Below, piece after piece: positions 5,157 through 27,912 of a DNA stretch of 32,137 nt. A program made the translations under genes and the position numbers. The DNA is from Acidobacteriota bacterium (lineage in GTDB: Bacteria; Acidobacteriota; Thermoanaerobaculia; Gp7-AA8; JAHWKK01): contig JAHWKK010000033.1 of the NCBI GenBank assembly GCA_019347945.1, positions 1-32,137 on the forward strand. The letters are read 5' to 3'. Positions within the stretch are counted from its first letter, which is position 1. Each line of letters starts with the position of its first letter. Under the pieces are notes generated by a model, which had not been told where the DNA came from, searched no databases, and saw nothing but the letters and a program-made list of their open reading frames with translations.

Positions 5157-5953
5157 AGAGAAGACTGGCGTTTCTGGCGGCGATCGTCATCGCTGCCAGC
5201 ATGGCGGTGCATGCCGCTCCGAAGACCGTTCCCCTCGACGAGGAGCTCAGGTACGACTGGCGTCTCAGAGGACCCCTTTCGTGGGTCGCGGCGATCGCGT
5301 TTCCCACGTCCGGAACCGGGAATCTCAGGACGAGCGTTTCGCCGCGCGACACGGTCGAGACCGAGCTCACGATTCGCGCCAGGAAAGGCTCGGACTTCTA
5401 CCGGTACGAATCCGAGATCGAGCGAGAATCGATCAAGACACTGATGTCGTATCACGGCTACGCGTGGGGTGACAAGGAGAAGGAGGAACGGACATTCTTC
5501 GACTACGTGAAGAAGGTCGCCCGGATCTTCAAGCGCTCCTACAAGAAGGAAGACGAGACGAAGGAAGAGGCGATCCCGGGACGTCCTTTGCGGGATGTCC
5601 TCACTGGGATCTACTATCTCCGAATCAACTCCGACGCCTTCACGAAACCGGTCAACGCCGAGATCTACTCGGACGGGACGATGTACCCGGTGGTGTTCAA
5701 GCCCCTCGGTGTGAAATCGATGAAGTTCGAAGGAGCAAAGGGCACCGTTCGAGGATTCGAGATCACCGCACGGCCGGGAGACGAAAAGAGGTGGCCGGGT
5801 GGAGTCGAGGTCTGGTTCACCACCGATGAGCGGAAGATCCCGGTTCAGATCTCGATCAATCAGACTCTTGCGAATCTCCAGCTCGATCTGGCCTCGATCG
5901 AGAAAACGGGAAGCGCTCCGAAGCCGACGGCCTTCGTCCCTCCCGGACGCTAG
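5153..5953 (+). CDS. secreted DUF3108-like protein
   Basis: 266 residues starting with a clear Sec signal peptide: KRR, a hydrophobic core of about 15 residues, then a likely AHA|AP cleavage near residue 21. The rest is beta-rich and resembles DUF3108 proteins, which are periplasmic or envelope proteins of unknown function in Gram-negative bacteria. Features include repeated basic and acidic stretches around residues 105-145 and a conserved-looking GVEVWFTTDERKIPV segment near the C terminus. The ATG overlaps the ispH stop, with GGGAGGAAG about ten bases upstream. The stop TAG (5951-5953) is followed after three bases by heptamer array C. Function is unknown. Confidence 0.75.
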   Translation: MKRRLAFLAAIVIAASMAVHAAPKTVPLDEELRYDWRLRGPLSWVAAIAFPTSGTGNLRTSVSPRDTVETELTIRARKGSDFYRYESEIERESIKTLMSYHGYAWGDKEKEERTFFDYVKKVARIFKRSYKKEDETKEEAIPGRPLRDVLTGIYYLRINSDAFTKPVNAEIYSDGTMYPVVFKPLGVKSMKFEGAKGTVRGFEITARPGDEKRWPGGVEVWFTTDERKIPVQISINQTLANLQLDLASIEKTGSAPKPTAFVPPGR

Positions 5954-5956
5954 AAG

Positions 5957-6005
5957 CAGGAACCAGGAAGCAGGAGCCAGGATCCAGGAAGCAGAATCCA
6001 GCAAG
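5957..6005. repeat. heptamer array C, 7 units CAGGANN with decay
   Basis: Units are CAGGAAC, CAGGAAG, CAGGAGC, CAGGATC, CAGGAAG, then the degenerate CAGAATC and CAGCAAG. The array starts three bases after the DUF3108 stop and faces array D. Confidence 0.85.
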
Positions 6006-6032
6006 CAGAGTCAACTTTTTTCACGAGCCTCC

Positions 6033-6070
6033 CCCAGATCTTTCGCCGTCCTTCGGCGGCTCAGGATGAC
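6033..6070. repeat. short hairpin repeat with CTCAGGATGAC tail
   Basis: CGCCG-TCCTT-CGGCG (6044-6058) forms a hairpin and is followed by GCTCAGGATGAC. The layout 'ATC(C/T)TTCG, hairpin, CTCAGGATGAC' resembles a dispersed intergenic repeat I recall from many environmental bacterial genomes; this is recollection, not a search. It lies between arrays C and D. The rest of 5954-6211 holds no gene. Confidence 0.45.
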
Positions 6071-6168
6071 GAGGGGTAGGTTTCTCCGAGAGCAAACATT
6101 CGTCCATGATCGTCGCTTCGCCAAAACACAACATTCGTCATTATTCGCGCGTGCTCCGCCGAGCTCTG

Positions 6169-6209
6169 TCTCCTGAATCCTGAATCCTGAATCCTGATCC
6201 TGTCTCCTG
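6169..6209. repeat. heptamer array D, about 6 units NNTCCTG
   Basis: Units TCTCCTG, three identical AATCCTG, one 6-base unit ATCCTG, and TCTCCTG. It is the right arm facing array C and abuts the dnaE2 stop codon at 6212. Confidence 0.85.
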
Positions 6210-6211
6210 GC

Positions 6212-9200
6212 TCAATGAAAGTCGTGGCTGTCGATTCTCGCGAAATCGAGGACTGGCCAGAATCTTTCGGCACGCAGCGACGGTTGACCCCCTTCCTTCT
6301 GCAGAATCCCTTCGACGATCAGTCCGGGTGAGGTGACAATTGTCGAGCGATTGTCCCGGAAGAGGCTCGGATTGACGATCGCCTGCGCCATTCCGGTCTC
6401 GTCCTCCAGGGTGAGGAAGACGAAACCCTTCCCCGTGGCAGGCCGCTGCCGAACGATGACGGCGCCGGCAGTCCGCACCCGTTTTCCTCCCGGCTCCCGC
6501 AAAAGCTCTGCTGCGGAGAGGACACGCTGACTTTTCAGACTCGACCTCAGATGTTCCATCAGATGAGGGCCCGTCGTGAGCTGCGTCGCATGGTAATCAG
6601 CGACCGTCTCTTCGAGAGCGGACATCTCGCTCAGAGGGGAAGCTCTGAGCGATCGATCGCTCTTCTCGAAGAGCACGCCGGCTTCTCTGGCAACCCGCGC
6701 AACCTGCCACAGCGCGGACCGGCGAGTCTGTCCGAATCCGGAGAGAGCGCCGGCCCATGCGAGCCGGGTCAGCTGATCCTGTCCCGTACGGCATCGCATC
6801 TCCAGATCCTCGATCGATTCGAAGTCTCCGTTCGCACGCGCCTGCTCGATTCTCCGGCCCACCTGCTCGCGCAGACCATTGACGTATCGCATCCCCAGCC
6901 GGACGCTTCCTTCCTCCCATGAGCACTCCCACCCCGATCGATTGACGTCGACGGGAAGGACGCTCACGCCGTGTCGCTGCGCATCCTTGATGAGCGTCGC
7001 GGGGTGGTAGAAGCCCATCGGCCAGGAATTGAGCATCCCGATCAGAAAAGCCGCGGGATGATGAGCTCGAATGTAAGCGCTTGCATAAGCAATCAGCGCG
7101 AAGCTGGCGGCGTGCGATTCCGGAAACCCGTACAACGCAAACGAAGTGATCGACTGGACGATCTGATCCTGTGCCTTGCCGGTGATGCCGTTGGCTTCCA
7201 TTCCGGAGCGGAGCTTCATCTCGATCAGCTGCATCTTCTCGACCGAGCGTTTGAACCCCATCGCCCTACGCAGCTCTTCGGCTTCACCGCCCGAGAATCC
7301 GGCGGCCACCATCGCGATGCGAAGCAGCTGCTCCTGAAAGAGGGGAACTCCGAGGGTTCGTTTCAGGATCGGCTCGAGTGAAGGATGGGGGTACTCGACT
7401 TCTCGCTTCCCCTGGCGCCGGTCGAAGAAAGGATGCACCATGCCGCCGACGATCGGACCGGGTCGGATGATCGCGACCTGAATGACGAGATCGTAAAACT
7501 TTTCCGGCCGGTTTCTCGGAAGCGAGGCCATCTGCGCACGGCTCTCGACCTGAAAAACCCCGACCGTGTCGGCCTCGTTCAGCATCCGATAGACCAGCGG
7601 ATCGTCCTGCGGGAGATGGGCGAGGTCGACCTCGGTTTTCTCGTTCTCCCGGATGATCGGGATCGCGCGCTCGAGCGCGGCCAGCATTCCGAGCCCGAGA
7701 AGATCGACTTTGATGATGCCGAGATCGGCGCAGTCGTCCTTGTCCCACTGAATGACCACTCTGCCGGGCATCGAAGCCGGCTCGAGCGGAACGACCTCAT
7801 CGAGCCTACCGCTCGTCATGACCATTCCTCCCGAATGCTGACCGAGATGGCGGGGAAGGTTCTGGATCCGTTGCCACAATCCGATCAGATGCCGCACACG
7901 TCCGTCGTCCGGATCGAGTCCTGCCGACTGCAGCTCCTTCTCCAGGCCGGTCACGGTTTCGCGGATCTCGCCGAATGTCCACCGGCCGACCTGTTTCGCG
8001 AATCGGTCGATCTGTTCCGGCGAAAAGCCGAGCGCCTTGCCCACTTCCCTCGCTGCGGAACGCTCCCGGTAGGTGATCACGTTGGCCGTCATCGCGGCGC
8101 CACGTTCGCCATATCGGTCGTAGACGTATTGAATCGCGCGCTCACGCTGATCGCCGGACGGAAGATCGAGATCGATGTCCGGCCATTCACCTCTCTCCTC
8201 CGAAAGAAATCGCTCAAAGAGAAGCTCCATCTTCACCGGATCGACCGCCGTGATCGAAAGCGCGTAGCAGACCGCGCTGTTCGCCGCCGATCCGCGACCC
8301 TGAACGAGAATGTTCTCCCGGAGGCAGAACTGAACGATGTCCCAGACGATGAGAAAGTAGCCGGCGAGATCGAGCTTTTCGATCATCGTGAGCTCACGAT
8401 CGATCTGCGCCTGCGCTTTCACGGTCAGCGGACGGAAGCGCGCCCGTGCACCGTTCCAAGTGATCTGCCGCAGATACGACATGGCGGTCTCGCCCGGAGG
8501 AAGAGGGTAGTCGGGGAAGCGATAACCGAGGTTGGCGAGGGTGAAGTCGAGCTCGGAGGCGAGCTCGATCGATGCATCGATCGCATGCGGAAGATCCGAG
8601 AAGAGCGTGCACATCTCCGCGGCGGATCGGACATGCCGCCCTGCATTCTCCTCGAGCAGCGTCCCCGCCGCATCGAGATTCGTTCCATGCCGGATGCACG
8701 AGAGAACATCCGCGAGCTCCCGGTCACCAGGAGCCGCGAAGCGGACGGCATTGGTCGCGACCACCTGCAGCCGGTGATTCCGTGCGATGTCGATCAGCGC
8801 CTGGTTGCGATGCTCCTGTTCCCTCAGATGGTGACGCTGCAACTCGACGTGTACGTGATCCGAGAAGATCGCCTTCAGCTTTCCGATCAGATCGGAGGCG
8901 GCGCCGATGCCACCGTGGCGTAGCGTCCGCGCGACGATTCCATCCGAGCCTCCCGTCAGACAGTGCAGCCCCGACGCGTAGCGTTCGATCATCTCGAGAT
9001 CGAAGCGCGCCTCTCCCTTTTCATTCGCGAGCGCCCCTTCGGTGATCAGCCTGCAGAGATTCCGGTAGCCCTCCCGTCTTCGGACGAGTAGCGACAGCCG
9101 CGCTTCTCCAGCCGCGGATCGCTCCCCGGGGCTCACGAGTCGAAGAGATCCGAGCGGATTCGTCTCGTTCAGAACCAGATCCGCACCGACGAGCGCTCGA

Positions 9201-9505
9201 ATCCCTGCTCGTTTGGCCGCCGTGTGGAATCGCGGCGCACCGTACACGCCATTCACCTCGATCAGCGCCGCCGCCGGCAGTCCTCGGGCAGCCGCATGCT
9301 CGATCAGATCCTCCGGAAGCGACGCCCCTTCGAGGAACGAGAAGGCCGACTGCATTCGCAGTTCGACGTAGTCGCGAGGACTGCCGCGATGCGCCCGCGG
9401 CTTCCACGCGCGCTGGCGCAGCCCCTCCTTCCTCGCACCGGACGAGGCCGTCGGCAGTTTGCCTCCGAGGGTTCGGGATGGTGGTGTTGATGAGCTCTGG
9501 CGCAT
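6212..9505 (-). CDS. dnaE2: error-prone DNA polymerase III alpha subunit DnaE2
   Basis: C-family polymerase that performs SOS-associated mutagenic translesion synthesis together with ImuA and ImuB. The 1097 residues run as PHP domain (about 45-250), polymerase core and a C-terminal OB fold (about 985-1060). Catalytic aspartates lie in PDIDLD (442-447), preceded by GRGSAANSAVCYALS (403-417). The PHP domain has lost its first metal-binding motif: the expected HxH region reads ELRMQSAFSFL. The end DFH matches the usual DnaE2 C terminus. The ATG at 9505 has no Shine-Dalgarno because array E begins seven bases upstream, so a later start near residue 45 is conceivable. It is the last gene of the imu cassette and converges on the DUF3108 gene. 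Confidence 0.95.
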   Translation of the reverse strand: MRQSSSTPPSRTLGGKLPTASSGARKEGLRQRAWKPRAHRGSPRDYVELRMQSAFSFLEGASLPEDLIEHAAARGLPAAALIEVNGVYGAPRFHTAAKRAGIRALVGADLVLNETNPLGSLRLVSPGERSAAGEARLSLLVRRREGYRNLCRLITEGALANEKGEARFDLEMIERYASGLHCLTGGSDGIVARTLRHGGIGAASDLIGKLKAIFSDHVHVELQRHHLREQEHRNQALIDIARNHRLQVVATNAVRFAAPGDRELADVLSCIRHGTNLDAAGTLLEENAGRHVRSAAEMCTLFSDLPHAIDASIELASELDFTLANLGYRFPDYPLPPGETAMSYLRQITWNGARARFRPLTVKAQAQIDRELTMIEKLDLAGYFLIVWDIVQFCLRENILVQGRGSAANSAVCYALSITAVDPVKMELLFERFLSEERGEWPDIDLDLPSGDQRERAIQYVYDRYGERGAAMTANVITYRERSAAREVGKALGFSPEQIDRFAKQVGRWTFGEIRETVTGLEKELQSAGLDPDDGRVRHLIGLWQRIQNLPRHLGQHSGGMVMTSGRLDEVVPLEPASMPGRVVIQWDKDDCADLGIIKVDLLGLGMLAALERAIPIIRENEKTEVDLAHLPQDDPLVYRMLNEADTVGVFQVESRAQMASLPRNRPEKFYDLVIQVAIIRPGPIVGGMVHPFFDRRQGKREVEYPHPSLEPILKRTLGVPLFQEQLLRIAMVAAGFSGGEAEELRRAMGFKRSVEKMQLIEMKLRSGMEANGITGKAQDQIVQSITSFALYGFPESHAASFALIAYASAYIRAHHPAAFLIGMLNSWPMGFYHPATLIKDAQRHGVSVLPVDVNRSGWECSWEEGSVRLGMRYVNGLREQVGRRIEQARANGDFESIEDLEMRCRTGQDQLTRLAWAGALSGFGQTRRSALWQVARVAREAGVLFEKSDRSLRASPLSEMSALEETVADYHATQLTTGPHLMEHLRSSLKSQRVLSAAELLREPGGKRVRTAGAVIVRQRPATGKGFVFLTLEDETGMAQAIVNPSLFRDNRSTIVTSPGLIVEGILQKEGGQPSLRAERFWPVLDFARIDSHDFH

Positions 9506-9512
9506 TTGAAGA

Positions 9513-9547
9513 AGGGATCAGGGATCAGGGATCAGGGATCAGGGATC
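9513..9547. repeat. heptamer array E, 5 perfect AGGGATC units
   Basis: Five identical tandem 7-bp units, left arm of the pair around the first IVP gene. It supplies the last codon and the TGA stop of that gene and ends seven bases before the dnaE2 start. Its unit differs from the CAGGA[AT] units elsewhere but matches its partner array F. Confidence 0.92.
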
Positions 9548-9946
9548 AGGTTGTGAGACGAGGAGAACCCGTCGTTGTCGATTCACGAGTGCGTCGCTTT
9601 CGAGACTCTCGCGAAGTCCGATGAGCATCCTGCCGATTTCTCGTATTTTCTCGGTCAGTACCTCCGCGATCTGAGCAGGCAGATACACTAGATGTTGTGA
9701 AAGTAAAATCTGCGTTTCGATCTCTGCCAGCGACCCGGAGGCAATTGATATAAATCTCAGATATTCTTTGCGGCTGCGACGGCCATTGCCTTCGGCGATA
9801 TTGCTTGGAATCGAAATGGCCGAGCGTCGGATCTGGGCCGTCAGTCCGTAGCACTCTTCCTGTGGGAAAATCGACGTAGCTTTATAGGTCTCGACAACGA
9901 GATCCATCGACTTCTGCCAGACTTTCAGTTCCTTGAATCGACCCAT
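9539..9946 (-). CDS. 23S rRNA IVP-type four-helix-bundle protein (copy 1)
   Basis: 135 residues of the S23/IVP family (TIGR02436-like), small all-helical proteins first known from intervening sequences in 23S rRNA and structurally related to the Avd protein of diversity-generating retroelements; their biochemical function is unknown. The family signature IRRSAISIPSNIAEG is at residues 39-53, with the N-terminal FKELKVWQKSMDLV and a C-terminal REIGRMLIGLRESL helix. The ATG at 9946 has an excellent AAAGGAGAAG at 9951-9960. The TGA stop falls inside array E. It sits between imuB and dnaE2 and is bracketed by inverted heptamer arrays E and F. Base composition looks visibly lower in GC than imuB and dnaE2, consistent with acquisition. 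Confidence 0.9.
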   Translation of the reverse strand: MGRFKELKVWQKSMDLVVETYKATSIFPQEECYGLTAQIRRSAISIPSNIAEGNGRRSRKEYLRFISIASGSLAEIETQILLSQHLVYLPAQIAEVLTEKIREIGRMLIGLRESLESDALVNRQRRVLLVSQPDP

Positions 9947-9975
9947 TTTCTTCTCCTTTCGGTTATTTGCTTTGC

Positions 9976-10031
9976 TGATCCCTGATCCCTGATCCCTGAT
10001 CCCTGATCCCTGATCCCTGATCTCTGATCCC
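9976..10031. repeat. heptamer array F, 8 units TGATCCC
   Basis: Six perfect units, one TGATCTC, then one more perfect unit. It is the right arm for the first IVP gene and ends six bases from the imuB stop. Its unit is the reverse complement of array E's GGGATCA, a variant used by no other pair in the window. Confidence 0.92.
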
Positions 10032-10037
10032 TGCCTC

Positions 10038-11558
10038 TCAGTCATACATCCCGTCGGCAAACCATTTCTCCTTTGTCGAGTCGTAATAGATCCGGTAGAG
10101 CCCGCCGCGTGCGAGCTCGACGTCCCAGTAACTTCGCTCCACCGGATGGTCCGACCACCACCCTTCTTCCAGACGCCACGGTCCCGAAGCCACCCGAACC
10201 GCTCCCTCGATGCGCGACTCCTTCGAGTCGAGCGGGCGAAGTCGCACGGGGCGGGTCTCCCGAGAGGTGTCGAGCTCGAGGATCACCTCGAGCTCGACGG
10301 GAGGGCGGATCGTCCGGACGGTGAGGAGTCCCCGGTGCGGTGCCGGATCCCGCCGGTTCATCGGAGGAGGGGGAGGGTCGAAGGCGACGAGATTGAATCG
10401 TTCGGGAGACCGGCTGTCGACCGTTCGTGGCGAGCCGACCCGCTCGCGGCTGACCATTGAGCTGAGCCGCGCAATCGTCGTTGCGATCCTGTCGGGCGAC
10501 ATCGCGGGCGGACCGAAAAGCGACATCTGCGCGGTCCGAGGCCGGTCCGGATGTGCCGTGAAGAGGAAGCCGGTGACCGGCGCCCCCGGCGGTGTCGCTT
10601 CGAGCTCGAGCCTGACGAAGGTCAGCAGCGTTTTGACCTCTCGAGTCGGAGTCGGCAGCCGGATCGTTCGATCGTGAAAGCCGTCGGGCTCGAGGCGGAG
10701 CGACACCTCGAGAATCCTGCAGGAAAACCCGAGCGACTCCATCCGGCGGCAGAGCCGGTCGAGCGCCGCATTCGCGACGAAGAGAAACGGCTCGAGAGCC
10801 ACCAGCGGCCACTCCAGATCCATCCCCTCGCTGAACTCCGGCGGCGGCACGCGCGGAATGATCGGAGTCGGATCGAATCCTCGTGCGGAACAATGAAGCT
10901 GCCGGCCGGTCTCGCCCAGCCGCGTCGCCACTTCCGCTTCCGAAAGATTCGCGAGCTCTCCGATCGAACGGATCCCCCATCGGTCGAGCGTCCGTCCGAT
11001 CTCGAGCCCGGGATCGAGACGCTCGATCGGAAGCGGCGCCAGGAACTTCATCTCGTCTCCCGGCTCGACGATCGTCGGAGACTCCGGAAGCTCGGCCGCG
11101 ATCCGTGCCGCGAGCTTGCTCGCTGCGATTCCGACCCGCGCGCGGAGCCCTTCCCGTTCCGCCTCGTGCAAAGCCGAGGAGGCGAGCGCGCGCTCCGGAT
11201 GATCCGAACCCGCGTAGTGCCGCTCGAGCCCCGAGATTTCCATGTAAGCCACTCCCGCCGCGCCGTCCTCGACACGGGGAGAAAGACGGGCCGCGACATC
11301 GAGAAGCGCTTCCTGCGCTGCTTTCTCGCAGTCGGCGTCGCGCCCTCGTGCGATGAGGCCGGGGACGATCGCACGCCCCTGGGGAAGCGTCATCCCGGCG
11401 CGCACCCCGAGCACGCGCGCCCGCTTCGAGGCGGCCGCGATGAAAGCGCGCGATCCATTCCCCTCGACGATGGCAACCGTTTCGGTCGCGAGCTCCGGCT
11501 CGCTTCGCAGCCGGGCAGCGAGAGGAAAGAGCGGAACGTAGAAGCAGGCGATTCGCAT
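10038..11558 (-). CDS. imuB: ImuB, catalytically inactive Y-family polymerase-like adaptor
   Basis: ImuB acts as the hub of the DnaE2 mutasome, tethering it to the beta clamp. The 506-residue protein has a Y-family fold at the N terminus (CFYVPLFPLAARL, residues 5-17; AYMEISGLE, 104-112) but lacks the acidic catalytic residues of active DinB/UmuC enzymes, as expected for ImuB. A clamp-binding motif QMSLFG is at 344-349. The C-terminal part (about 370-506) is a proline- and arginine-rich linker plus a tail ending near WDVELARGGLYRIYYD. The ATG at 11558 has no Shine-Dalgarno: array G begins seven bases upstream. It lies between the two IVP genes within the imu cassette. Confidence 0.93.
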   Translation of the reverse strand: MRIACFYVPLFPLAARLRSEPELATETVAIVEGNGSRAFIAAASKRARVLGVRAGMTLPQGRAIVPGLIARGRDADCEKAAQEALLDVAARLSPRVEDGAAGVAYMEISGLERHYAGSDHPERALASSALHEAEREGLRARVGIAASKLAARIAAELPESPTIVEPGDEMKFLAPLPIERLDPGLEIGRTLDRWGIRSIGELANLSEAEVATRLGETGRQLHCSARGFDPTPIIPRVPPPEFSEGMDLEWPLVALEPFLFVANAALDRLCRRMESLGFSCRILEVSLRLEPDGFHDRTIRLPTPTREVKTLLTFVRLELEATPPGAPVTGFLFTAHPDRPRTAQMSLFGPPAMSPDRIATTIARLSSMVSRERVGSPRTVDSRSPERFNLVAFDPPPPPMNRRDPAPHRGLLTVRTIRPPVELEVILELDTSRETRPVRLRPLDSKESRIEGAVRVASGPWRLEEGWWSDHPVERSYWDVELARGGLYRIYYDSTKEKWFADGMYD

Positions 11559-11565
11559 GGTTGAG

Positions 11566-11607
11566 CAGGAGCCAGGATTCAGGAGCCAGGATTCAGGAAC
11601 CAGGATT
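11566..11607. repeat. heptamer array G, 6 units CAGGANN
   Basis: Units CAGGAGC, CAGGATT, CAGGAGC, CAGGATT, CAGGAAC, CAGGATT: a 14-bp higher-order alternation. It is the left arm for the second IVP gene, contributes that gene's stop codon, and begins seven bases from the imuB start. Confidence 0.9.
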
Positions 11608-12134
11608 CAGATTCCGGCGCCAGAGTTAGGTTGAAGTGATTTCCGGAGGCCGTTAAGCATTCGGCCTATTTCACGACAACATTCCATGGCGGGCTCGAGA
11701 TCGGGATCTGGCAGATAGTTCAATCGCGAAGCCAGAATCATTTGAGTTTCGAGCTCGGCGAGTGACCCAAGTGCGATTGATAAATGATTCAGGTATGCCC
11801 CGGTCGAAGATCGCGCATGACCTTCTGCAATGTTTGAAGGAATCGATATCACCGAACGTCGAATCTGAGCTGTCAGTCCGAAAACTTCCTCGCGGGGCAT
11901 TCCTTCAGTCAAGTGATAGATCTCGACTACGAGATCCATCGCTCTTTTCCAAACGCGCAGATGTTTGAAGCTCTTGATTTTTTTCGGATCAAATCCAGCA
12001 TCCCTCACATCTTGCACTCCATTCCAATGCTGGTTCATGAATCTCCACGTCTGATTTCCATCCACACCACGACATTCGATCGTTGTTTCATCGAATCGTG
12101 AATCCTGAGTGTCTTTTGCTGAAGGCCTCACCAT
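11607..12134 (-). CDS. 23S rRNA IVP-type four-helix-bundle protein (copy 2)
   Basis: 175 residues, same family as copy 1 and recognisably similar to it but not a recent duplicate. The core is at residues 54-170, with SFKHLRVWKRAMDLV, the signature IRRSVISIPSNIAEG (91-105), and CREIGRMLNGLRKSL (153-167). The first 53 residues have no counterpart in copy 1. ATG at 12134 is chosen because AAAGGT precedes it; ATG at residue 33 is a possible later start. The frame is open further upstream into imuA antisense-frame sequence, which I do not consider coding. The TGA stop lies in array G. The gene is flanked by arrays G and H and placed between imuA and imuB. Function unknown. Confidence 0.87.
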   Translation of the reverse strand: MVRPSAKDTQDSRFDETTIECRGVDGNQTWRFMNQHWNGVQDVRDAGFDPKKIKSFKHLRVWKRAMDLVVEIYHLTEGMPREEVFGLTAQIRRSVISIPSNIAEGHARSSTGAYLNHLSIALGSLAELETQMILASRLNYLPDPDLEPAMECCREIGRMLNGLRKSLQPNSGAGI

Positions 12135-12149
12135 TTGATTACCTTTCTG

Positions 12150-12198
12150 AATCCTGGTTCCTGAATCCTGGTTCCTGAATCCTGGCTCCTGAATCCTC
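12150..12198. repeat. heptamer array H, about 7 units NNTCCTG
   Basis: On the minus strand the units alternate CAGGATT with CAGGARC, the same 14-bp higher-order pattern as array G. The last unit is AATCCTC, and the array runs into the imuA stop codon. Confidence 0.9.
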
Positions 12199-12988
12199 AT
12201 ATCCTCATCCGCAGCGACATTGCCGCGGACTGCGTCGTCGTTCGTGTCCGATGCTTCGCCAGATGCAGCCGGGAGCCGATCCCCGTCAGAAGCGAGGGCC
12301 CCGAGCCCCGCCGGTGCCAGAAGACCCGCTCCTGACGAGTCATCAGCGAGGCTTCTTTTCCAAGATTGCAGGCCGGCCACGGCGCCGAGACGAGGAGGAT
12401 GCCACCGGTCGAGGAGGCAGCGCGCGAAAGTCGGAGCCACGCGGCATCGACCGGCCGCCGTCCGCGCAACCGGGTTCCGAGCTCCAGCACGACCAGAGGA
12501 AAGCCCGTCGTCAGCAGAAGCTCCGCCGCATTCACCGCATCGAGAACCCTCTCCGGACGCACCCACAGCAGGCGCTCGAGATCAACCCCCCCATCCTCGG
12601 CGTTTTTCGGATCGAGCGCATCCCCATGATCGACCAGAGCGACGTTCTCCCCCGAGGAGGTGATCGAAGCGAGCGCCGCGATGACGAGCGAGAATCGCCC
12701 GGAAGACCGATGGCCGTGAACCTCGGTCATCGATCCCCGCGGGAAACCGTGGAGAAGCGTGTCGAGCGAACGGATCGAGGAATGCTGCACCCCCGCTTCC
12801 CGCCGCTCCGTCGCCCGGACCAGATCCCTTCCGGTCATGAGCCTCCGCGCCAGCCCCTCCTCGAGATCAAGCCGCGCGAGCGGACCCCCGGAATCCCCTT
12901 TACTTTCCGTCACCGGTTCGACGGGGGCGGGTCGCAGAGCCCGGGGACGGTTCCAGTCGACGTCGAAAAGTAGAGCCTGAGAAGCCAT
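12197..12988 (-). CDS. imuA: ImuA-like RecA-fold protein of the mutagenesis cassette
   Basis: 263 residues with a RecA/SulA-like core. LDTLLHGFPRGSMTEVHG (residues 75-92) corresponds to the segment before the P-loop, and GHRSSGRFS (92-100) takes the Walker A position with arginine where lysine is usual. A Walker B-like LVVLELGTRL follows near 165. ImuA proteins interact with ImuB and are needed for DnaE2-dependent mutagenesis; position as first gene of an imuA-imuB-dnaE2 set supports the call. The last residues (RMRI) and stop are drawn from the edge of heptamer array H, so the C-terminal tail may have been altered by the insertion. ATG at 12988 has GGGGAG five bases upstream. Confidence 0.85.
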   Translation of the reverse strand: MASQALLFDVDWNRPRALRPAPVEPVTESKGDSGGPLARLDLEEGLARRLMTGRDLVRATERREAGVQHSSIRSLDTLLHGFPRGSMTEVHGHRSSGRFSLVIAALASITSSGENVALVDHGDALDPKNAEDGGVDLERLLWVRPERVLDAVNAAELLLTTGFPLVVLELGTRLRGRRPVDAAWLRLSRAASSTGGILLVSAPWPACNLGKEASLMTRQERVFWHRRGSGPSLLTGIGSRLHLAKHRTRTTTQSAAMSLRMRI

Positions 12989-15946: not shown

Positions 15947-16462
15947 GAGCCGATATTCTAGGAGCCATTCCCGCACCGAGCAACTGGCTCATCGTCGAAT
16001 GATCGCCACCGGATGATGCCACCAGATGATGGCAGGACGATCTTCAGCGCTGAGTCCCTGCGGCGGCGATCGATCTCTATATTCTACGGCTCGGGGTTGC
16101 GGATCGTAGTTGAATTTATTCGCCATTGGCCCCGGGATATGCGTGGCTGTGCGGCTCCACGGCGCACAATGTTCGGAGGCGGCCCTGACCGGGGCGCATC
16201 GGCCACCTGGGCATCCTTTTGAGCTCGGAGGGTCTACGGACAGATCATAACGGCATGTCGGGAACGGCACCCGGCGCCCAGGCCGCGGGATCCAGCGCCG
16301 GAGGCGCCCTATAAAGTAGCGCGGGGTGGAGCGGCCGGAGGCCGCGGAACCCCGGGGCACGAGGGCATCCGGGATGTCGAGCCCCGAAGGGGCGACAGGT
16401 GCGTCGTCATCGAGATAAGGGCGCACGAGGTGAAGACGCGTTCCTCGCCCGAGGTCTGCGGC
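15947..16462. other. intergenic region without a supported gene
   Basis: It holds a 13-bp near-perfect tandem duplication (16005-16017 and 16018-16030, GCCACCGGATGAT then GCCACCAGATGAT) and the REP-like element at 16295-16398. A 145-codon open frame on the minus strand spans the repeat, but its translation follows the hairpins and has no protein-like features. I regard it as non-coding. Confidence 0.6.
16295..16398. repeat. REP-like multi-hairpin element
   Basis: Three hairpins in a row. GCGCC-GGA-GGCGC is at 16295-16307. A nested pair has outer GGGGT/ACCCC (16323-16327, 16349-16353) and inner GCGGCC-GGA-GGCCGC (16331-16345). GCCCC-GAA-GGGGC (16381-16393) is followed by GACAG. The GACAG tail after a stem is shared with the cluster at 22421-22797. 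No RAYT-type transposase gene is in the window. Confidence 0.65.
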
Positions 16463-20224: not shown

Positions 20225-20650
20225 ATGTCGAGTCACGCGGACAGGGACATGGCGGACTGCCCGAACTGCATTCTGGTTGCCGAGGACGATCCGGCGCTTC
20301 GAAAGCTGTTGATCAGCTCTCTGCGCCGCGAGGGGTATCGGCTGCATGAAGCGAAGGACGGTCGTGAAGCGCTGAAGGAGATGCGATCTGGTGAGGCGGA
20401 GCTCCTGATTCTCGATCTGATGATGCCCAAAGTATCGGGTTGGGAGGTTCTTCGTCGCCGGGCCGAGGATCCCGACTTGCAGCGGATCCCCGTGATCGTG
20501 ATCAGCGCCGCGAAGGATTCTGCCGTCGCCGAAGTGCTCGATCGGGACATCTGTGCGCTCCTTCCCAAGCCGTTCGACCTCGATGCATTGCACTCCCTGG
20601 TGCGGAGCTGTCTGACGCACGCTCATCCTCCGCGCCTTGCCACGAGCTGA
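20225..20650 (+). CDS. single-domain response regulator
   Basis: 141 residues, receiver domain only: acidic pair in AEDDP (19-23), phosphoacceptor D64 (LILDLMMPK), conserved Ser in VISAAK, and Lys in LPKPFDLD. No output domain follows. The start is uncertain among GTG 20183, ATG 20225 and ATG 20249; the domain itself begins just after the last. No histidine kinase is adjacent, though a CheA lies 8 kb downstream. An rng gene follows on the same strand after 71 bases. Confidence 0.88.
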   Translation: MSSHADRDMADCPNCILVAEDDPALRKLLISSLRREGYRLHEAKDGREALKEMRSGEAELLILDLMMPKVSGWEVLRRRAEDPDLQRIPVIVISAAKDSAVAEVLDRDICALLPKPFDLDALHSLVRSCLTHAHPPRLATS

Positions 20651-20721
20651 GCGGCGTAACAGGATCGAGTTTCTGCCGCCATCCGGCTTTCTGGCACGTT
20701 CCGCGCTCAGAGTTTCCGTTC

Positions 20722-22350
20722 ATGAGCGATCGGAAAATGCTGATCAACGCGAAGAATCCGGAAGAGATCCGGATTGCGACAGTTCACGGAACGGAGCTCG
20801 AGAATTTCCAGATCGAAGTTTCCGATCGTGGACTGACGAAGGGAAACATCTACCGGGGTCACGTACACAACGTCGAGCCTCGTCTGAACGCTGCATTCGT
20901 CGACTACGGTGTGAGAAAGAACGGATTTCTCGCCGCTTCCGGCGTCGTCCGGCAGGCATGGTCGAACGAGCCGCACGGCGGGAGCAGGCCGCCGCCGATC
21001 GACGAAGTCCTCGGAGCCGGCGCCGAGCTGCTGGTACAGGTTCGGAAGGAGCCGATCGAGGAGAAGGGTGCGCGGGTCTCGACCGACATCGAGCTGATCG
21101 GACGACACCTCGTATTGAGACCGTACGGAACTGAGGTTCACGTCGACCGCAGCGTCACCGACGAGACGAAGAGAAAGGACCTCACCGCGCTCGGTGGAAA
21201 GCTCGGTGTCGACGCCGGTAACGGAGTGCGGATCCGCGAGAATGCGATCGGCCAGACTCTCGACACGGTGCGGCGCGATCTCCGGATGCTGCAGAGGCTG
21301 TGGAAGCGGATCATCGACGAGTCGAAGAAGGGGAAGGGTCCGAAGCTTCTCTACACCGACCAGGACATCATCATGCGCGCGCTCCGCGACCATCTCACAG
21401 GCGACATCGACGAGGTCCTGATCGACGATCCGCTCGCGTTTGCGAGAGCTGAAAAGCTGCTCCGCATCTTTATCCCGCGCGGGCGGGTGAAGCTGATTCA
21501 TTACGAAGAGCGAACTCCGCTGTTCGAACGGTTCGACATCGAGACTCGGATCGATCGGATTCATGCGCGAACCGTAGAGCTTCCTTCCGGAGGGATGATC
21601 TCGATCGACCGCACCGAGGCGCTCGTGGCAATCGACGTGAACTCGGGTAAGACATCGAAGGGGCTCGGCCGCGACGAGACGGTGCTGATCGCAAACACCG
21701 AAGCGGCCAACGAGATCGCGCGACAGCTCCGGCTCCGCGACGTCGGCGGTCTCATCGTCGTCGATTTCATCGACATGCGATCGCAGAGTGACCGAAAGCG
21801 GGTCGAACGGGAGATCAGAGCGGCGATGCGACCGGATCGCGCCCGGTACACCGTTGGCCGGATCTCGCCGAACGGTCTGCTCGAGATCAAGCGACAGCGC
21901 CTCGGTGAAGCGCTCGATCTCCAGACGCAGCGGCCATGTCCGACGTGCGGAGGAAACGGGAGGATCGCGAGCCGTGAGCTCGTCGGACTCGGTCTGCTCC
22001 GAAAGCTCGAGAACCGGATCTCGACCAGTTCCATCGAGCTCGCCCGCGTGACGCTTCATCCCGAGCTCGCCGACGCCGTTCAGAACCTCCGCCGGGCCGA
22101 CCTCCACAGGCTCGAAAGGGAGTTCGGCACGCGCATCGAGGTCGTATCCTCGGTATCGGCGCACCGGTCCGATCAGGAGATCGAATGGATCGAGAGGAAG
22201 GCGCCGGCAGAAGAGCGTCGACAGACCGACGAACCGGCCGAGGCTTCCGTAGATCTGCCCGACAGAAGAGCCCGGAAGCGGCCGCGGCCGACGTCGAACG
22301 CACAGGCCGGAGGCCGGGATTCTGCGAGGTCGAACACCCCGGCAACCTGA
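20722..22350 (+). CDS. rng: ribonuclease G/E family endoribonuclease
   Basis: 542 residues. An S1 RNA-binding domain lies at about 40-125 (GNIYRGHVHNVEPRLNAAFVDYG), then the RNase E/G catalytic core with metal ligands D305 (AIDVNSGK) and D348 (VVDFIDM), and the Zn-link cysteines C406 and C409 (CPTCGGNGR). These positions are almost the same as D303, D346, C404 and C407 of E. coli RNase E. The enzyme cleaves single-stranded AU-rich RNA in rRNA maturation and mRNA decay. The tail (about 495-542) is basic and disordered but short, so this is G-like rather than a full degradosome scaffold. ATG 20722 fits the family N terminus. Confidence 0.93.
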   Translation: MSDRKMLINAKNPEEIRIATVHGTELENFQIEVSDRGLTKGNIYRGHVHNVEPRLNAAFVDYGVRKNGFLAASGVVRQAWSNEPHGGSRPPPIDEVLGAGAELLVQVRKEPIEEKGARVSTDIELIGRHLVLRPYGTEVHVDRSVTDETKRKDLTALGGKLGVDAGNGVRIRENAIGQTLDTVRRDLRMLQRLWKRIIDESKKGKGPKLLYTDQDIIMRALRDHLTGDIDEVLIDDPLAFARAEKLLRIFIPRGRVKLIHYEERTPLFERFDIETRIDRIHARTVELPSGGMISIDRTEALVAIDVNSGKTSKGLGRDETVLIANTEAANEIARQLRLRDVGGLIVVDFIDMRSQSDRKRVEREIRAAMRPDRARYTVGRISPNGLLEIKRQRLGEALDLQTQRPCPTCGGNGRIASRELVGLGLLRKLENRISTSSIELARVTLHPELADAVQNLRRADLHRLEREFGTRIEVVSSVSAHRSDQEIEWIERKAPAEERRQTDEPAEASVDLPDRRARKRPRPTSNAQAGGRDSARSNTPAT

Positions 22351-22881
22351 GCCCCGCGAAGCGCGGACGAGCTCTAAAGATCTCGATTCATCCGCCAGTG
22401 AATTTCAGCCTACCGGCATTCTGTCGCCCGCGGGGCGCGGGCTCGACATTCCAGGGGCCCGTGTCTGTCCCCGGCTGAAGACGGGGGCTAAGAACTGTCG
22501 CCGCCGCCGGCGGCTCCTTCAGCTGCGTCCGACTGGAGCGAGCCCGAGACAATATGCCCGTCGTGCCTTATTCTGTCGCCCGCTCCGCGGACTCCAAAAA
22601 GATCTAGCGTGGAGTTCTTACCGAGCCGCGCCTCGCGGGCGACAGACGCTCAAGATTCACATTCACTTTGAATCTCCGGCGATCTCGACCTCCAGCAAGC
22701 CCGCGCAAGCGGGCGAAAGATCTTAGCCCCCGGCTTCAGCCGGGGGACAGGAAGAACGTTCCCGGGAAATCCCGAGCCCGCGCCTCGCGGGCGACAGTTA
22801 CGTCAAGGGCCTCCGGCGGGGCGTGGGCTCGTTCTGGTACACTTTTCCGGGGCAGTGTCGAAATTGGTTGCCCGGGGTGTG
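22351..22881. repeat. mirror-arranged REP-like hairpin cluster
   Basis: No gene. A hairpin CCGCG-AAG-CGCGG (22354-22366) follows the rng stop. Then come eight GC-rich palindromic units. Four start with CTGTC (22421-22444, 22465-22493, 22495-22516, 22573-22590). Four face the other way, three ending in GACAG (22623-22645, 22721-22750, 22774-22797) and one in GAAAG (22695-22719). The first matches the reverse complement of the eighth and the second that of the seventh, so the whole 377 bp is an imperfect inverted repeat centred near 22607. It lies between rng and the amidase gene. Confidence 0.75.
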
Positions 22882-24672
22882 ATGGGGATGAAAGGGTGGA
22901 AGGCAGCAGCGACTCTCGCGATGGTGCTCCTCGCAGCAGGAGCGTTCGCTGAGGAGACTCGCGCGAGGATTACCGACAACATCGAGGGAGTCCTGACCGA
23001 AGAAGGCGACCTGATGCTGGTCGTCCGTGCTCACAGAGGAGATGCCTGGAGCCGGCTTGCCCGCCGTGTGACGGGCGACGGGGCGAACTGGCGGCGGCTG
23101 GCGGAGATCAACGGTGCCGGCGAGAACCTGCTCGCCGGTCAGCGTGTGCGCGTGCCATGGACCTGGGTCCGCGACGAGCTGAAAGCAGCCGTCGTCGAGG
23201 AGATCTTTCCACACGATGGAAGGGTTGCCGACGGGTGGATTCATCAGGTCACCTTCGATCGGACCTTCGAGGGGGAGACGCTGTGGGAGATCGCACGCTG
23301 GTTCACCGGGGACGGACGCAACTACTCCGAGATCCGTTCTGCAAACCCCGGCCTCGCAATGTCGACCCGGGTGGGCGAACGAATCCTGATTCCGAGACGG
23401 TTTCTGCTGCCGGCGTTTGCCAATGCTCCCCTCTCCGCGGTCGACGGGCCGGACTACCGGGTCATTCAGATGGGGAGGGATGCGGCCGAAAGCGCTCTCC
23501 TGGAGTACGGTGCCGACGCAAACGGGAGCTGGGCGGAGTATCGGCTCAAGGAGGGGGAGGCGATCTACTCTTCGGTCGCGATCCGGTTCACGGGTCGGGT
23601 GCACGCGGACGACGTCAACCAAGCGGTGTCGCGAATCATCGAGCTCAACCGCATCGAGGACGTTTCGAGGCTACCGGTCGGATACCGCGTCCGGATTCCG
23701 CTCGAGCTCGTGACCGCGGAGTACCGGCCGCCGGGAGATCCGCTTCGCATCGCGTGGGAGAGAGAGGAGCGCGAGAGGATGCTGCTCGTCGACCGGCCGA
23801 GAGCGGCGCGTCTCGAAGGCGTCCAGATCGTGATCGATCCGGGTCACGGCGGCCGCGACGTCGGTGCCAGCCGTGGCGACCTCTGGGAGTCAAGCTACGT
23901 GTACGACATCGCCTGCCGCGTCAGAGACTATGCCGAGCGCGAGAGCGGCGCGAAGGTGTGGATCACGACGCGATCGAAGAGCCTCGGTTTTACGCCAGCC
24001 CTCGATGACACCGTGAGGAATGTGAAGGATCACATTCTTCTCACGAACCCTGTCTACGATCTCGACAATCCGGTGATTGGAGTCAATCTCCGGTGGTATC
24101 TCGCCAACGCGATTTTCTCGAATGCGGTCAGCGGCGGAACGAGTCCGGACAAGGTGGTGTTCATCTCGCTTCACGCCGATTCTCTCCACCCATCGCTACG
24201 CGGTGCGATGGCCTACGTCCCGGGGCAGCGGCACGTCACGGGGACGTTCGGCAAGCGTGAGGACGTCTATCTCGCGCGGGCCGAGGTCCGGCAGAATCCC
24301 GTCGTCACGCAGACGGCGGAGGAGGCGAGAACCGCCGAGGCGCTCTCGCGGAGAATGGCGGAGTCGATTCTCGGTGCGTTCGCGGAAGCGAATCTTCCGG
24401 TCCATCCGTACGGTGCCGTGCGCGGGCACGTCGTCCGCGGTGGAGGCGAGTGGGTGCCGGCGGTGATCCGGCACAACACGATTCCAACCCGCGTGCTTCT
24501 CGAAGTCGCGAACCTCGGCAACCCCGACGACCATTCGCTGCTGGGCAGCAGGAAATCCCGGGACCGGATCGCTCGCGCGATCTTCAGCGGAATCGAGTCG
24601 TATTTCGACAGCGAAGTCGAGGAGCGCTCGCTGATCGCGGGAACGACTGCTGCCGGCGCAGGTACGCGCTGA
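22882..24672 (+). CDS. secreted LysM-containing N-acetylmuramoyl-L-alanine amidase
   Basis: 596 residues. A signal peptide (MGMKGWKAAATLAMVLLAAG, cleavage after AFA near 23) targets it to the periplasm. Three LysM-like modules follow at about 40-90, 130-180 and 215-270, each ending in a V/I-R/L-I-P strand. The Amidase_3 domain is at about 310-590. Zinc ligand candidates are H322 (IDPGHGG), the Glu in DLWESSYVYD, and the His in FISLHADS; the catalytic Glu is in LLEVANLGN. It cleaves the amide bond between MurNAc and the stem peptide during wall turnover or cell separation. GTG 22855 and ATG 22888 are alternative starts. Confidence 0.92.
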   Translation: MGMKGWKAAATLAMVLLAAGAFAEETRARITDNIEGVLTEEGDLMLVVRAHRGDAWSRLARRVTGDGANWRRLAEINGAGENLLAGQRVRVPWTWVRDELKAAVVEEIFPHDGRVADGWIHQVTFDRTFEGETLWEIARWFTGDGRNYSEIRSANPGLAMSTRVGERILIPRRFLLPAFANAPLSAVDGPDYRVIQMGRDAAESALLEYGADANGSWAEYRLKEGEAIYSSVAIRFTGRVHADDVNQAVSRIIELNRIEDVSRLPVGYRVRIPLELVTAEYRPPGDPLRIAWEREERERMLLVDRPRAARLEGVQIVIDPGHGGRDVGASRGDLWESSYVYDIACRVRDYAERESGAKVWITTRSKSLGFTPALDDTVRNVKDHILLTNPVYDLDNPVIGVNLRWYLANAIFSNAVSGGTSPDKVVFISLHADSLHPSLRGAMAYVPGQRHVTGTFGKREDVYLARAEVRQNPVVTQTAEEARTAEALSRRMAESILGAFAEANLPVHPYGAVRGHVVRGGGEWVPAVIRHNTIPTRVLLEVANLGNPDDHSLLGSRKSRDRIARAIFSGIESYFDSEVEERSLIAGTTAAGAGTR

Positions 24673-25674: not shown

Positions 25675-27912
25675 ATGAGCCTGCTCGGCCGTCTCGAGGA
25701 CCTCTCGATTCCGGACATCGTTCAGATCGTCTTTCTGAGCCGCCGCACCGGGATGCTGGAGATCATCGATGGGGATCAGAGATGGTGCATCTACTTCAGG
25801 CAGGGTCGCATCGTGGCCGCCGCCGCTCCCGAGGCGGGCAATCTCGGCACCTACCTCCGTCAGCGAGGTCTCGCATCGCCGGACATTCTCTCGAAGCTCG
25901 ACAGCGGAACCCCGGCCGGCGATCTGATTGACGCCGAGCTCATCTCTCCCGAGCAGCTCGGGGAAGCTGCAAAACTGATGATCGCAGAAGTGGTGGGAAG
26001 CCTCCGTGAGAAGGCCAGGGGTGAATTCAACTTCATTCTCAGCGAGACGGTCGATGATCGGATCGACTACGACCCGGACGCGATCTTTGCGGAAGGAGGC
26101 ATCTCTCCGGCCGAAGTGTTCGAGAGCGACGAGAAACTCAGACCGCTGCAGGGGCTCGAGGAGTCCCTGAGGGCCGGAAAAGCTCTGCTACGAGGCGAGA
26201 CGACCGCCGAAAAAGCCAGAGGAATCGGCTTTGGCGAAGAGATCCGGACCCTCACTTCACCCGGCTCCACGGCGGTTCCGGAGACCGCGGGGCGTTCTTT
26301 CGCGCAGGAGGAGCCCGCCTTCGAAAGTGCCGATCGGGACGAACCGGCGTTCGAGGACCTCGGAGAGGACGCGTTCGTCGACGCGCTCCCGGAGACCTTC
26401 ACGGGAAACGTCCCGATTCCGGAGATCCCCGGGTACCGGGCGCCGGTCTTCGAAGCGGTGCCGGAAGTCGAGCCTGAGATCGAGCCTGAGCAGGAGCCCG
26501 AGCCTGAGATCGAGCCTGAGCAGGAGCCCGAGCCTGAGATCGAGCCTGAGCAGGAGCCCGAGCCTGAGATCGAGCCTGAGCAGGAGCCCGAGCCTGAGAT
26601 CGAGCCTGAGCAGGAGCCCGAGCCCGAGATCGAGCCCGGACGGGAGCCCGAGCCTGAGATCGAGCAGCCTCCCCCCTTCGAGACGGTCAGCCCCGAGCCT
26701 CAGGCCGAGCTCGATCTGGAAGATGCGGACCTCGAGGAGGTGGCTGCAGCCGACACGCTGGAGAGCGAGGGGGTTCCGCCTATCGATCAGGTGCAGCTGG
26801 CTCTGGATCATGCGGGAGCGACCGGCGCGCTGCCGCCTTCGTTCGAGTCGTTCCAGAGGCCGAGCCCGGCGGTTGCGGAAGTCGACCGGAACGTAGTCCT
26901 GTTCGAGACGAACCCGATGATTCGCGTCGCTGCGAAGCGAACCTTCGCCGAGGCGGGATACAACCTTTCGCAGTATGGGGTCATCGAGGATGCCGCGGCA
27001 AGGATCGGGCAGCTTCTCACGGCGAACGAATTCTTCGTGACGTTTCTCGACGACTCGCCGGAAGTGGGAAACGCGTCGGTGGAACTGCTGAAAATGATCA
27101 AGAAGAAGAACCGGCACCTTCCGGTCGTGATCGTCGATCCGGAGGCGGACCTCGAGCGCCGGCACGAGGTACTGGAAAAGGGGGCCGAGCTCTACCTGAC
27201 CAAGCCTTCGCAGGCTCATCTTCGGCCGAACATCGCGATGACGAGCCTCAACCGGTTCGGCGACGAGATGCTGCTGTTCTGCCGGAAGGCCATCGAGGAC
27301 TGGAGTGAGCTCGCGCTGACGCTCAGCGACGACGACAAGCGGGTCGGAGCAGCGTTCTACGAGATTGCGGAGAGGGAGAGGTCGGGACGGTCACGAAATC
27401 TGGTCAAACACCTGATCGACGAGCTGTCGAATCCGGACGACATCACGACGGTCGCCGACACGATTCTGCGCCTGGCATCGGGATGGCTCGATCGAGGAGT
27501 CCTCTTCGTCGCATCGCCGGTCCGGTTCATCGGACTGGGGGGGTTCGGGGAGACGGGGACCGGCCGCCCGATGTTCGACCTGGCCCGGCGTCTCTGGATT
27601 CCGCGGGACGAAGATTCGGTCCTTCGCGATGTCGCGACCACGGGCAGATCGCACCGGGGAAAGATGAGACGAACCCCGACTAACGTTAAACTTGTCGAGG
27701 GCATGGGGAACCGGGTTCCTTCGGAGGTCATCGTGATCCCGATTGCGGACGGAGGAGAAGTGGCCGGTATTCTCTACGGAGACAACGGAGGGCAGAGGAT
27801 GCCTATGGGTGACATGAACGGGCTCGAGTTCTTCATCGAACAGGCCGGGCTCGCCTTTCACAACGCCGTTCTCGCCAATGCTCGGAAGAAGGGAATCGAC
27901 TGGAACGAATGA
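25675..27912 (+). CDS. DUF4388 (PATAN-like) scaffold with [10 protein letters not shown] repeats, receiver-like and GAF-like domains
   Basis: 745 residues. An N-terminal DUF4388/PATAN-type domain (about 1-140, [29 protein letters not shown]) is followed by a disordered acidic linker. The linker includes six copies of [10 protein letters not shown] or a close variant (about 266-325). A receiver-like domain follows (about 400-510), with VLFETN replacing the usual acidic pair but LDD and LTKPSQ retained. A helical segment and a GAF-like domain (about 580-735, ending [21 protein letters not shown]) complete it. DUF4388/PATAN proteins are linked to two-component signalling and surface motility in several phyla. 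Its stop overlaps the CheY start (ATGA), so it belongs to the chemosensory operon. The exact role is unknown. Confidence 0.8.
26470..26664 (+). repeat. 30-bp in-frame tandem repeat
   Basis: Five identical 30-bp units (26470-26619), one diverged unit (26620-26649) and a half unit encode [10 protein letters not shown] in the linker of the DUF4388 protein. The identity extends to synonymous positions, which points to recent expansion. Copy number could vary by multiples of ten codons without breaking the frame. Confidence 0.95.

Follow-up and report, generated by a model that had tools for sequence, protein, structure and literature searches.

The REPs, BIMEs and REPINs that accompany RAYT transposases are high-copy, tagged short hairpins that stand in inverted pairs and arrays, with one or a few HUH Y1 genes, which are themselves bracketed by the repeats (PMC6006769, PMC8266576). 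Their transposases are of class 2, with a Y---NP motif, and the hairpin foot is marked by GT[AG]G. CGTC-tagged REPs, for which TGTC is a tag variant and inverted dimers are common, are described as single hairpins with AT pairs at the stem foot and without an associated transposase (PMC3733652). Two further groups of Y1 enzymes appear in a 2018 survey (PMC6006769). Class 3 TnpAY1 has Acidobacteria hosts and high-copy structures near the Y1 gene (about 600 in Solibacter), with a CnGA foot and the motifs NHVH and Y----Q. Subclass 1.2 comprises low-copy proteins of about 150 aa with DHxH, WQ and Y---Q--HH motifs, mostly from Cyanobacteria and Bacteroidetes; according to the survey's account of this subclass, the typical ends of IS200 are generally lacking, and no REP is listed. 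Rfam, for its part, catalogues Acido-Lenti-1 (RF01687) as an sRNA of unknown function. The main text of the 2010 discovery paper mentions this family once, in a table (PMC2864571), and a 2026 paper, where it touches on the family, still calls its function little known and proposes that it acts as a regulator in the vicinity of protease genes (PMC13298647). In the main text of a 2025 REP survey, neither 'RAYT' nor 'Rfam' occurs.

The locus described here, a mirror of eight hairpins in an acidobacterial genome, is probably a composite REP-like (BIME- or REPIN-like) element whose unit, a triplet of hairpins, goes with a Y1 HUH transposase bearing subclass 1.2 motifs. It differs from the RAYT-linked repeats in that the unit consists of three hairpins at fixed spacing, the transposase carries the class 1 motif Y---Q--HH, and the tag in the window is CTGTC rather than GT[AG]G. 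We rejected identity with the CGTC-tagged REPs: TGTC fits, but stems in the window begin with a G-C or C-G pair and a transposase is associated. A class 3 Y1 transposase was rejected because the motifs differ, and Thiomargarita MITEs were considered as a match and rejected.

Anatomy of the mirrored hairpins

The window, the whole 32,137-nt stretch of DNA that was analysed, is the entire contig C33; the genome comprises 49 contigs and 3.72 Mb. The mirror spans positions 22421 to 22797 and is intergenic, lying between two co-directional genes of the + strand that encode an RNase E/G family protein (20503..22350) and a LysM + N-acetylmuramoyl-L-alanine amidase (22855..24672). The amidase occurs in 19 of the 20 genomes searched, this one included; an RNase G gene adjoining it was found at none of 19 relative loci, several of which have little flank.

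Motif positions bore out an earlier note's description of four CTGTC-headed hairpins facing four GACAG- or GAAAG-tailed ones: CTGTC starts at 22421, 22465, 22495 and 22573, GACAG ends at 22645, 22750 and 22797, and GAAAG ends at 22719. On the + strand, motif and hairpin together define A (22421..22442), B (22465..22487, followed by CTAAGAA), C (22495..22514) and an imperfect D (22573..22592), all with a CTGTC tag. On the − strand, they define C' (22699..22719, GAAAG tail), B' (22727..22750, GACAG tail) and A' (22776..22797, GACAG tail), with D' (22626..22645, GACAG tail) placed by an inverted repeat and the motif. The whole therefore reads A-B-C-D, then D'-C'-B'-A'. The close outer matches that had been claimed were also found: over 29 columns, unit 2 differs from the reverse complement of unit 7 by a single mismatch and a single gap, and units 1 and 8 agree at 27 of 30 positions. 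Units 3 and 6 (15/21 columns) and units 4 and 5 (19/24 columns) match less well, which leaves only the two outer pairs strictly mirrored. In an inverted-repeat search the outer arms measured 42 nt (81% complementary) and 34 nt (91% complementary).

The earlier note had called for folding of the segment, which proved far more stable than its shuffles in both chemistries: for 397 nt the folding energy is −130.9 kcal/mol for DNA (z −9.35) and −227.5 kcal/mol for RNA (z −9.64), and none of 100 shuffles was equally stable in either case. The mirror holds seven CTGTC/GACAG motifs, as against at most three in same-size, motif-started stretches elsewhere in the window. Chance hairpins were rejected on the comparison of folds with shuffles and on the controls of the strict search given below.

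The mirror is best read as two inverted, back-to-back copies of a directional unit of ~90 nt, A-B-C, with extra tagged hairpins between them; its nested order follows from the pairing of two such copies in opposite orientation. In the unit, A is a tagged short hairpin, B an 8-bp hairpin ending in CTA, and C a second short hairpin. A model of the triplet, R1, was built from 54 triplets (37 loci) beside tnpA genes of other bacteria, none of them from this genome. It recovers the left triplet at 22419..22517 on the + strand (28.6 bits, E 1.3e-5) and the right triplet at 22696..22799 on the − strand (39.8 bits, E 3.2e-8), together with a third copy at 16292..16400 on the − strand (42.7 bits, E 6.8e-9), which belongs to a second subfamily with an extended B hairpin.

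Two other kinds of repeat were seen in the window. A 30-bp tandem repeat of 6.6 copies at 26469-26665 encodes Glu-Pro rich repeats within an ORF at 25675-27912, and several short arrays with a 7-bp period (CTGATCC, AGGGATC, CTGAATC) lie at 5952-12205. By eye, repeats resembling the latter also occur near some triplets elsewhere in the genome.

Copies and transposase genes in the same genome

A search of the genome for the same order of units, as the earlier note proposed, showed that copies of the same plan recur. With a 421-bp segment as query, BLAST gave at least 198 matches (40 of 83 candidate regions scored), and among those listed six others cover nearly the full mirror at 68-74% identity (E 6e-50 to 1e-21). 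The window mirror and 12 picked ones, 13 in all, extend between a tagged A and another tagged A in inverse orientation, and are alignable throughout. R1 found at least 109 units at E ≤0.1, 106 of them at E ≤0.01 (150 of 687 candidates scored), and a hairpin scan of 58 loci counted 243 tagged hairpins in 59 clusters. The grammar of these clusters is mostly uniform by eye, one strand carrying A, B and next either C or D, and the other strand the reverse, gaps and unassigned hairpins being present.

The earlier note regarded the nested order as foreign to random accumulation. The random order in other copies that would have told against this was not seen inside the triplet, whereas the orientation of neighbouring triplets varies: 50 adjacent pairs among the matches listed comprise 24 +-, 12 -+, 8 ++ and 6 --. 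The mirrored layout is thus the commonest but not the sole one. In 10 of the 24 +- pairs the gap measures 158-191 bp, and in the window it is 178. As in REP and BIME systems, then, tagged palindromes occur in high copy and in inverted pairs of both kinds.

One origin suggested at the outset was an inversion duplication, and the arms of the mirror are in fact inverted copies, 0.84 identical over the outer 100 bp. That the mirror was built once by such a local event, its likeness to other loci reflecting shared simple REP units only, is nevertheless very improbable, since the A-B-C order and the mirrored plan recur at many loci and the window arms resemble arms elsewhere (0.78-0.91) about as closely as they resemble one another. 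Nor is a recent event supported by the left arm, which is nearer the right arm of the copy on contig C8 (0.91) than its own right arm (0.84), a modest difference given that five shuffles reach 0.70-0.79 by the same measure. Because this shuffled baseline of global identity is high, we relied on BLAST E-values instead.

Copies resembling the second subfamily of 16292-16400 form -+ dimers on contigs C3, C4 and C5, with 16-30 bp between partners; a tnpA dedicated to this subfamily was not found in the genome. At five loci of the genome, some triplets appear by eye to sit inside a larger repeat with GGTTGATTGTTACCACC-like inverted ends, perhaps a MITE.

A search for a transposase, also proposed in the earlier note, revealed IS200-like Y1 genes bracketed by triplets at two places, C8:297-758 and C5:112619-113080. 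The two genes are 84% identical and lie in different arrays, and triplet tags adjoin each on both sides. Together with the copies of the same plan, their position between copies supports the alternative origin that the note had raised, a composite, probably mobile, REP-like unit. The genome contains eight Y1_Tnp matches; R1 found a triplet at none of the six other Y1 loci. With two genes at 84% identity and two tnpA fragments near other arrays, the near-identical multiple copies that are a trait of IS200/IS605 elements are not seen here.

The motifs of the encoded TnpA (DHVH, WQ and YIRQQKEHH) agree with subclass 1.2, an assignment that rests on motifs and length as tabulated in the 2018 survey (PMC6006769), where the pattern is DH[IV]H, WQ and Y---Q--HH at about 148 aa; the Y---NP motif of the RAYT class is not present. 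Across 19 aligned TnpA sequences, D54, H55, H57, W, Q, Y, H and H are invariant and the Q of Y---Q--HH is nearly so, and in some of the proteins L, A, T or M takes the variable position of DHxH, L doing so in the C5 copy. All 19 match the IS200/IS605 profile NF033573, and a match to PDB 2a6m (E 3e-16) indicates a relation to IS608 TnpA. Some of the solved transposase structures matched are those of ISDra2. Weak matches to the NCBIfam REP-transposase model NF047646 were obtained for 12 of the 19 (best E 1.6e-6). Phage records yielded 11 matches, all below 32% identity, and plasmid records 361, two of which are full-length matches at 39% in Bacteroidota replicons.

Triplets beside tnpA in other bacteria

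Searched against named genomes, the 19 TnpA queries gave 579 relatives, of which the best 80 loci were kept. By record title these come from Acidobacteria, Planctomycetes, Verrucomicrobia, Deltaproteobacteria, Bacteroidetes, Nitrospirae, Calditrichota, Chloroflexi, Cloacimonadota, Sumerlaeota and others. A strict, model-free search for three perfect hairpins was run on 78 of them, two with less than 150 bases of flank being set aside. Triplets were present in 43 of the 78 loci, on both sides in 22, and absent by this search from 35; among the controls, one distant stretch of 135 and none of 474 shuffles contained any. Triplet-flanked genes with subclass 1.2 motifs occur also in Acidobacteria, Planctomycetes, Verrucomicrobia and others, beyond the groups in which the 2018 survey mostly placed the subclass, and the link between unit and transposase class extends across phyla.

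A filter on spacing and on CT after B kept 55 of 67 triplets. The B stem is exactly 8 bp in 53 of these, though 7 sufficed for the search, and 32 have 12 nt between B and C, a count partly set by the filter. The stems of A and C share a 5-mer in 20 triplets, compared with a mean of 8.0 and a maximum of 15 in 2000 shuffles that ignore relatedness. The tag varies: its last letters before A are TTTC, TGTC or AGTC in 23 triplets and TC in 27, and GT[AG]G stands there in one. At the 3' foot, CT follows A in 39 of 55 and C in 26 of 55, its presence at B being required by the filter. In the alignment behind R1, which omits one of the 55, cells with a change on either side of the pairing number 200, where shuffles have 55 and slid versions 26-53; this covariation is partly circular, the aligned triplets having been chosen for their hairpins.

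At 43 named tnpA loci that were not used in R1, the model found a match within 300 bp of the gene in 40 and an inverted pair (− on the left, + on the right) in 24; three loci had no match within that distance. The low-copy Y1 gene bracketed by repeats, a hallmark of REP systems, therefore extends beyond the two genes on C8 and C5. The opposite orientation was taken by 8 of 43 left-flank and 15 of 53 right-flank matches. Among 28 loci of relatives, 22 had a match within 300 bp of tnpA and 12 an inverted pair; six had no match within 300 bp. At one of these six, hairpins were seen by eye.

Fourteen picked genomes with good triplets contain at least 3-119 R1 units each and at least 604 in total (at most 150 candidates scored per genome), as against 1-5 TnpA each and 35 in total, so that, much as in REP systems, the ratio of units to genes is high in the genomes examined. 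These figures bear on the proposal that the triplets are subterminal hairpins of decayed, ordinary IS200/IS605 copies with no REP-like spread of their own. The membership of all 19 TnpA in NF033573, the matches to solved IS608/ISDra2-type transposases and the existence of tnpA-bearing copies with inverted ends are all in keeping with it, and the A'-A spacer of some relatives' dimers resembles, by eye, the DNA upstream of tnpA. We consider it unlikely, however, given 35 genes for hundreds of units in those 14 chosen genomes and the dispersal of single-looking units in one Bacteroidota genome, where 20 copies are mostly single A-B-C units by eye. The left and right ends of IS200/IS605 elements are moreover asymmetric, whereas the ends here are symmetric inverted triplets.

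Under the preferred reading, of a REP-like element tied to its transposase, the triplet is a unit in its own right. By eye, 20 -+ pairs look like C'B'A'-ABC dimers with short spacers; they were picked because both partners were listed, and come from an acidobacterial (11), a deltaproteobacterial (8) and a planctomycetal (1) genome. In one Bacteroidota genome, TTATGTC on the left and GGGCTT on the right are candidate unit edges, a pattern that failed on 1 of 15 copies, with C placed in only 7 of the 14 others. Edges are blurred where units sit inside larger inverted-repeat elements, as some do, by eye, in this Bacteroidota genome and a deltaproteobacterial one.

Several arrangements were noted in passing. 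Six loci of a deltaproteobacterial genome carry triplet dimers flanked by AGACTTTATCCGAAATAA-like sequence, as if inside a MITE, and at three Flavipsychrobacter loci triplets are flanked by CATTGACTTAAG-like inverted sequence, both by eye. In a series of copies from one genome, the outer C stems appear to vary from copy to copy yet stay paired, with A and B varying less. At three loci, short symmetric forms have a single B hairpin between two inverted C hairpins.

Acido-Lenti-1 and the proposed working of the unit

Catalogued as an sRNA gene (PMC2864571), Acido-Lenti-1 here belongs to a larger repeat that goes with a transposase: the 46 positions of RF01687 are the B and C hairpins. In the window, RF01687 matches B and C of the right triplet at 22698..22746 on the − strand with 37.8 bits, above the gathering score of 37, and the corresponding two hairpins of the left triplet at 22468..22515 on the + strand with 22.8 bits, below that score. 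Over the genome as a whole the pattern holds, with 83 matches listed at E ≤0.01, 29 of them over the cut-off, and all 83 overlapping R1 matches on the same strand. None of 14 control genomes has a match over the cut-off; one weaker match falls below it.

The family, whose model was made by others, also keeps company with tnpA. Among the 80 tnpA loci, 32 hold 73 RF01687 matches (those of one locus not being independent) and 48 have none over the cut-off. Within 400 bp of tnpA lie 62 of the 73, where 12.8 are expected by length; all but 11 of the 62 face outward, 21 upstream on the − strand and 30 downstream on the + strand (51 in total). Across 119 genomes, this one included, 16 have both RF01687 and tnpA, 4 tnpA only, 4 RF01687 only and 95 neither (Fisher p 7.5e-13, kinship ignored), as scored with stricter filters, by which weak matches are lost. 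Three of the four RF01687-only genomes are 65-83% complete, and one is 99% complete.

This position beside tnpA argues against RF01687 acting as a small RNA, and its cataloguing as such is perhaps wrong. A reading of triplets and Acido-Lenti-1 as functional RNAs (sRNA, terminator or mRNA stabiliser), with the mirror transcribed where the RNase G gene ends and a secondary link to tnpA, can point to the Rfam listing, the very stable RNA fold and the placement between two co-directional genes; many REPs, too, have been described as plausibly transcribed and as working at the RNA level (PMC3733652). An independent RNA would require neither proximity to tnpA nor an outward orientation, and many of the dispersed copies stand in inverted pairs. 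We therefore regard this reading as improbable, a little more so than descent from decayed IS200/IS605 copies.

If the triplet is instead the DNA substrate of TnpA, as we infer, it could work as follows. Each genome has one or a few tnpA genes, typically in the arrangement C'B'A'-tnpA-ABC. On single-stranded DNA, for instance the lagging-strand template, TnpA would bind tag and hairpin, cut near the hairpin foot, and move or copy triplets, and non-autonomous triplets would accumulate as singles, inverted pairs and arrays. TnpAREP cleaves CT or CA close to its hairpin, the foot tetranucleotide serving as guide in at least one such system (PMC8266576), and cutting at the foot is suggested here by that analogy.

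More broadly, and with somewhat less than even confidence, we suggest that subclass 1.2 Y1 enzymes constitute a further single-stranded-DNA mobile system beside IS200/IS605 and RAYT-REP, in which a fixed three-hairpin module is recognised and moved, with inverted copies around the gene, in about ten phyla. Acido-Lenti-1 would then be the outer part of this module, DNA and not RNA, its copies marking past single-strand transposition. A conserved substrate that can be tested is now at hand for a transposase class reported without repeats, as is a likely identity for the Rfam family that has passed for an sRNA since 2010. If the proposal is true, annotation pipelines label transposon ends as ncRNA genes across many phyla, and the relationship between REPs and transposases would hold for class 1 enzymes, besides those of class 2.
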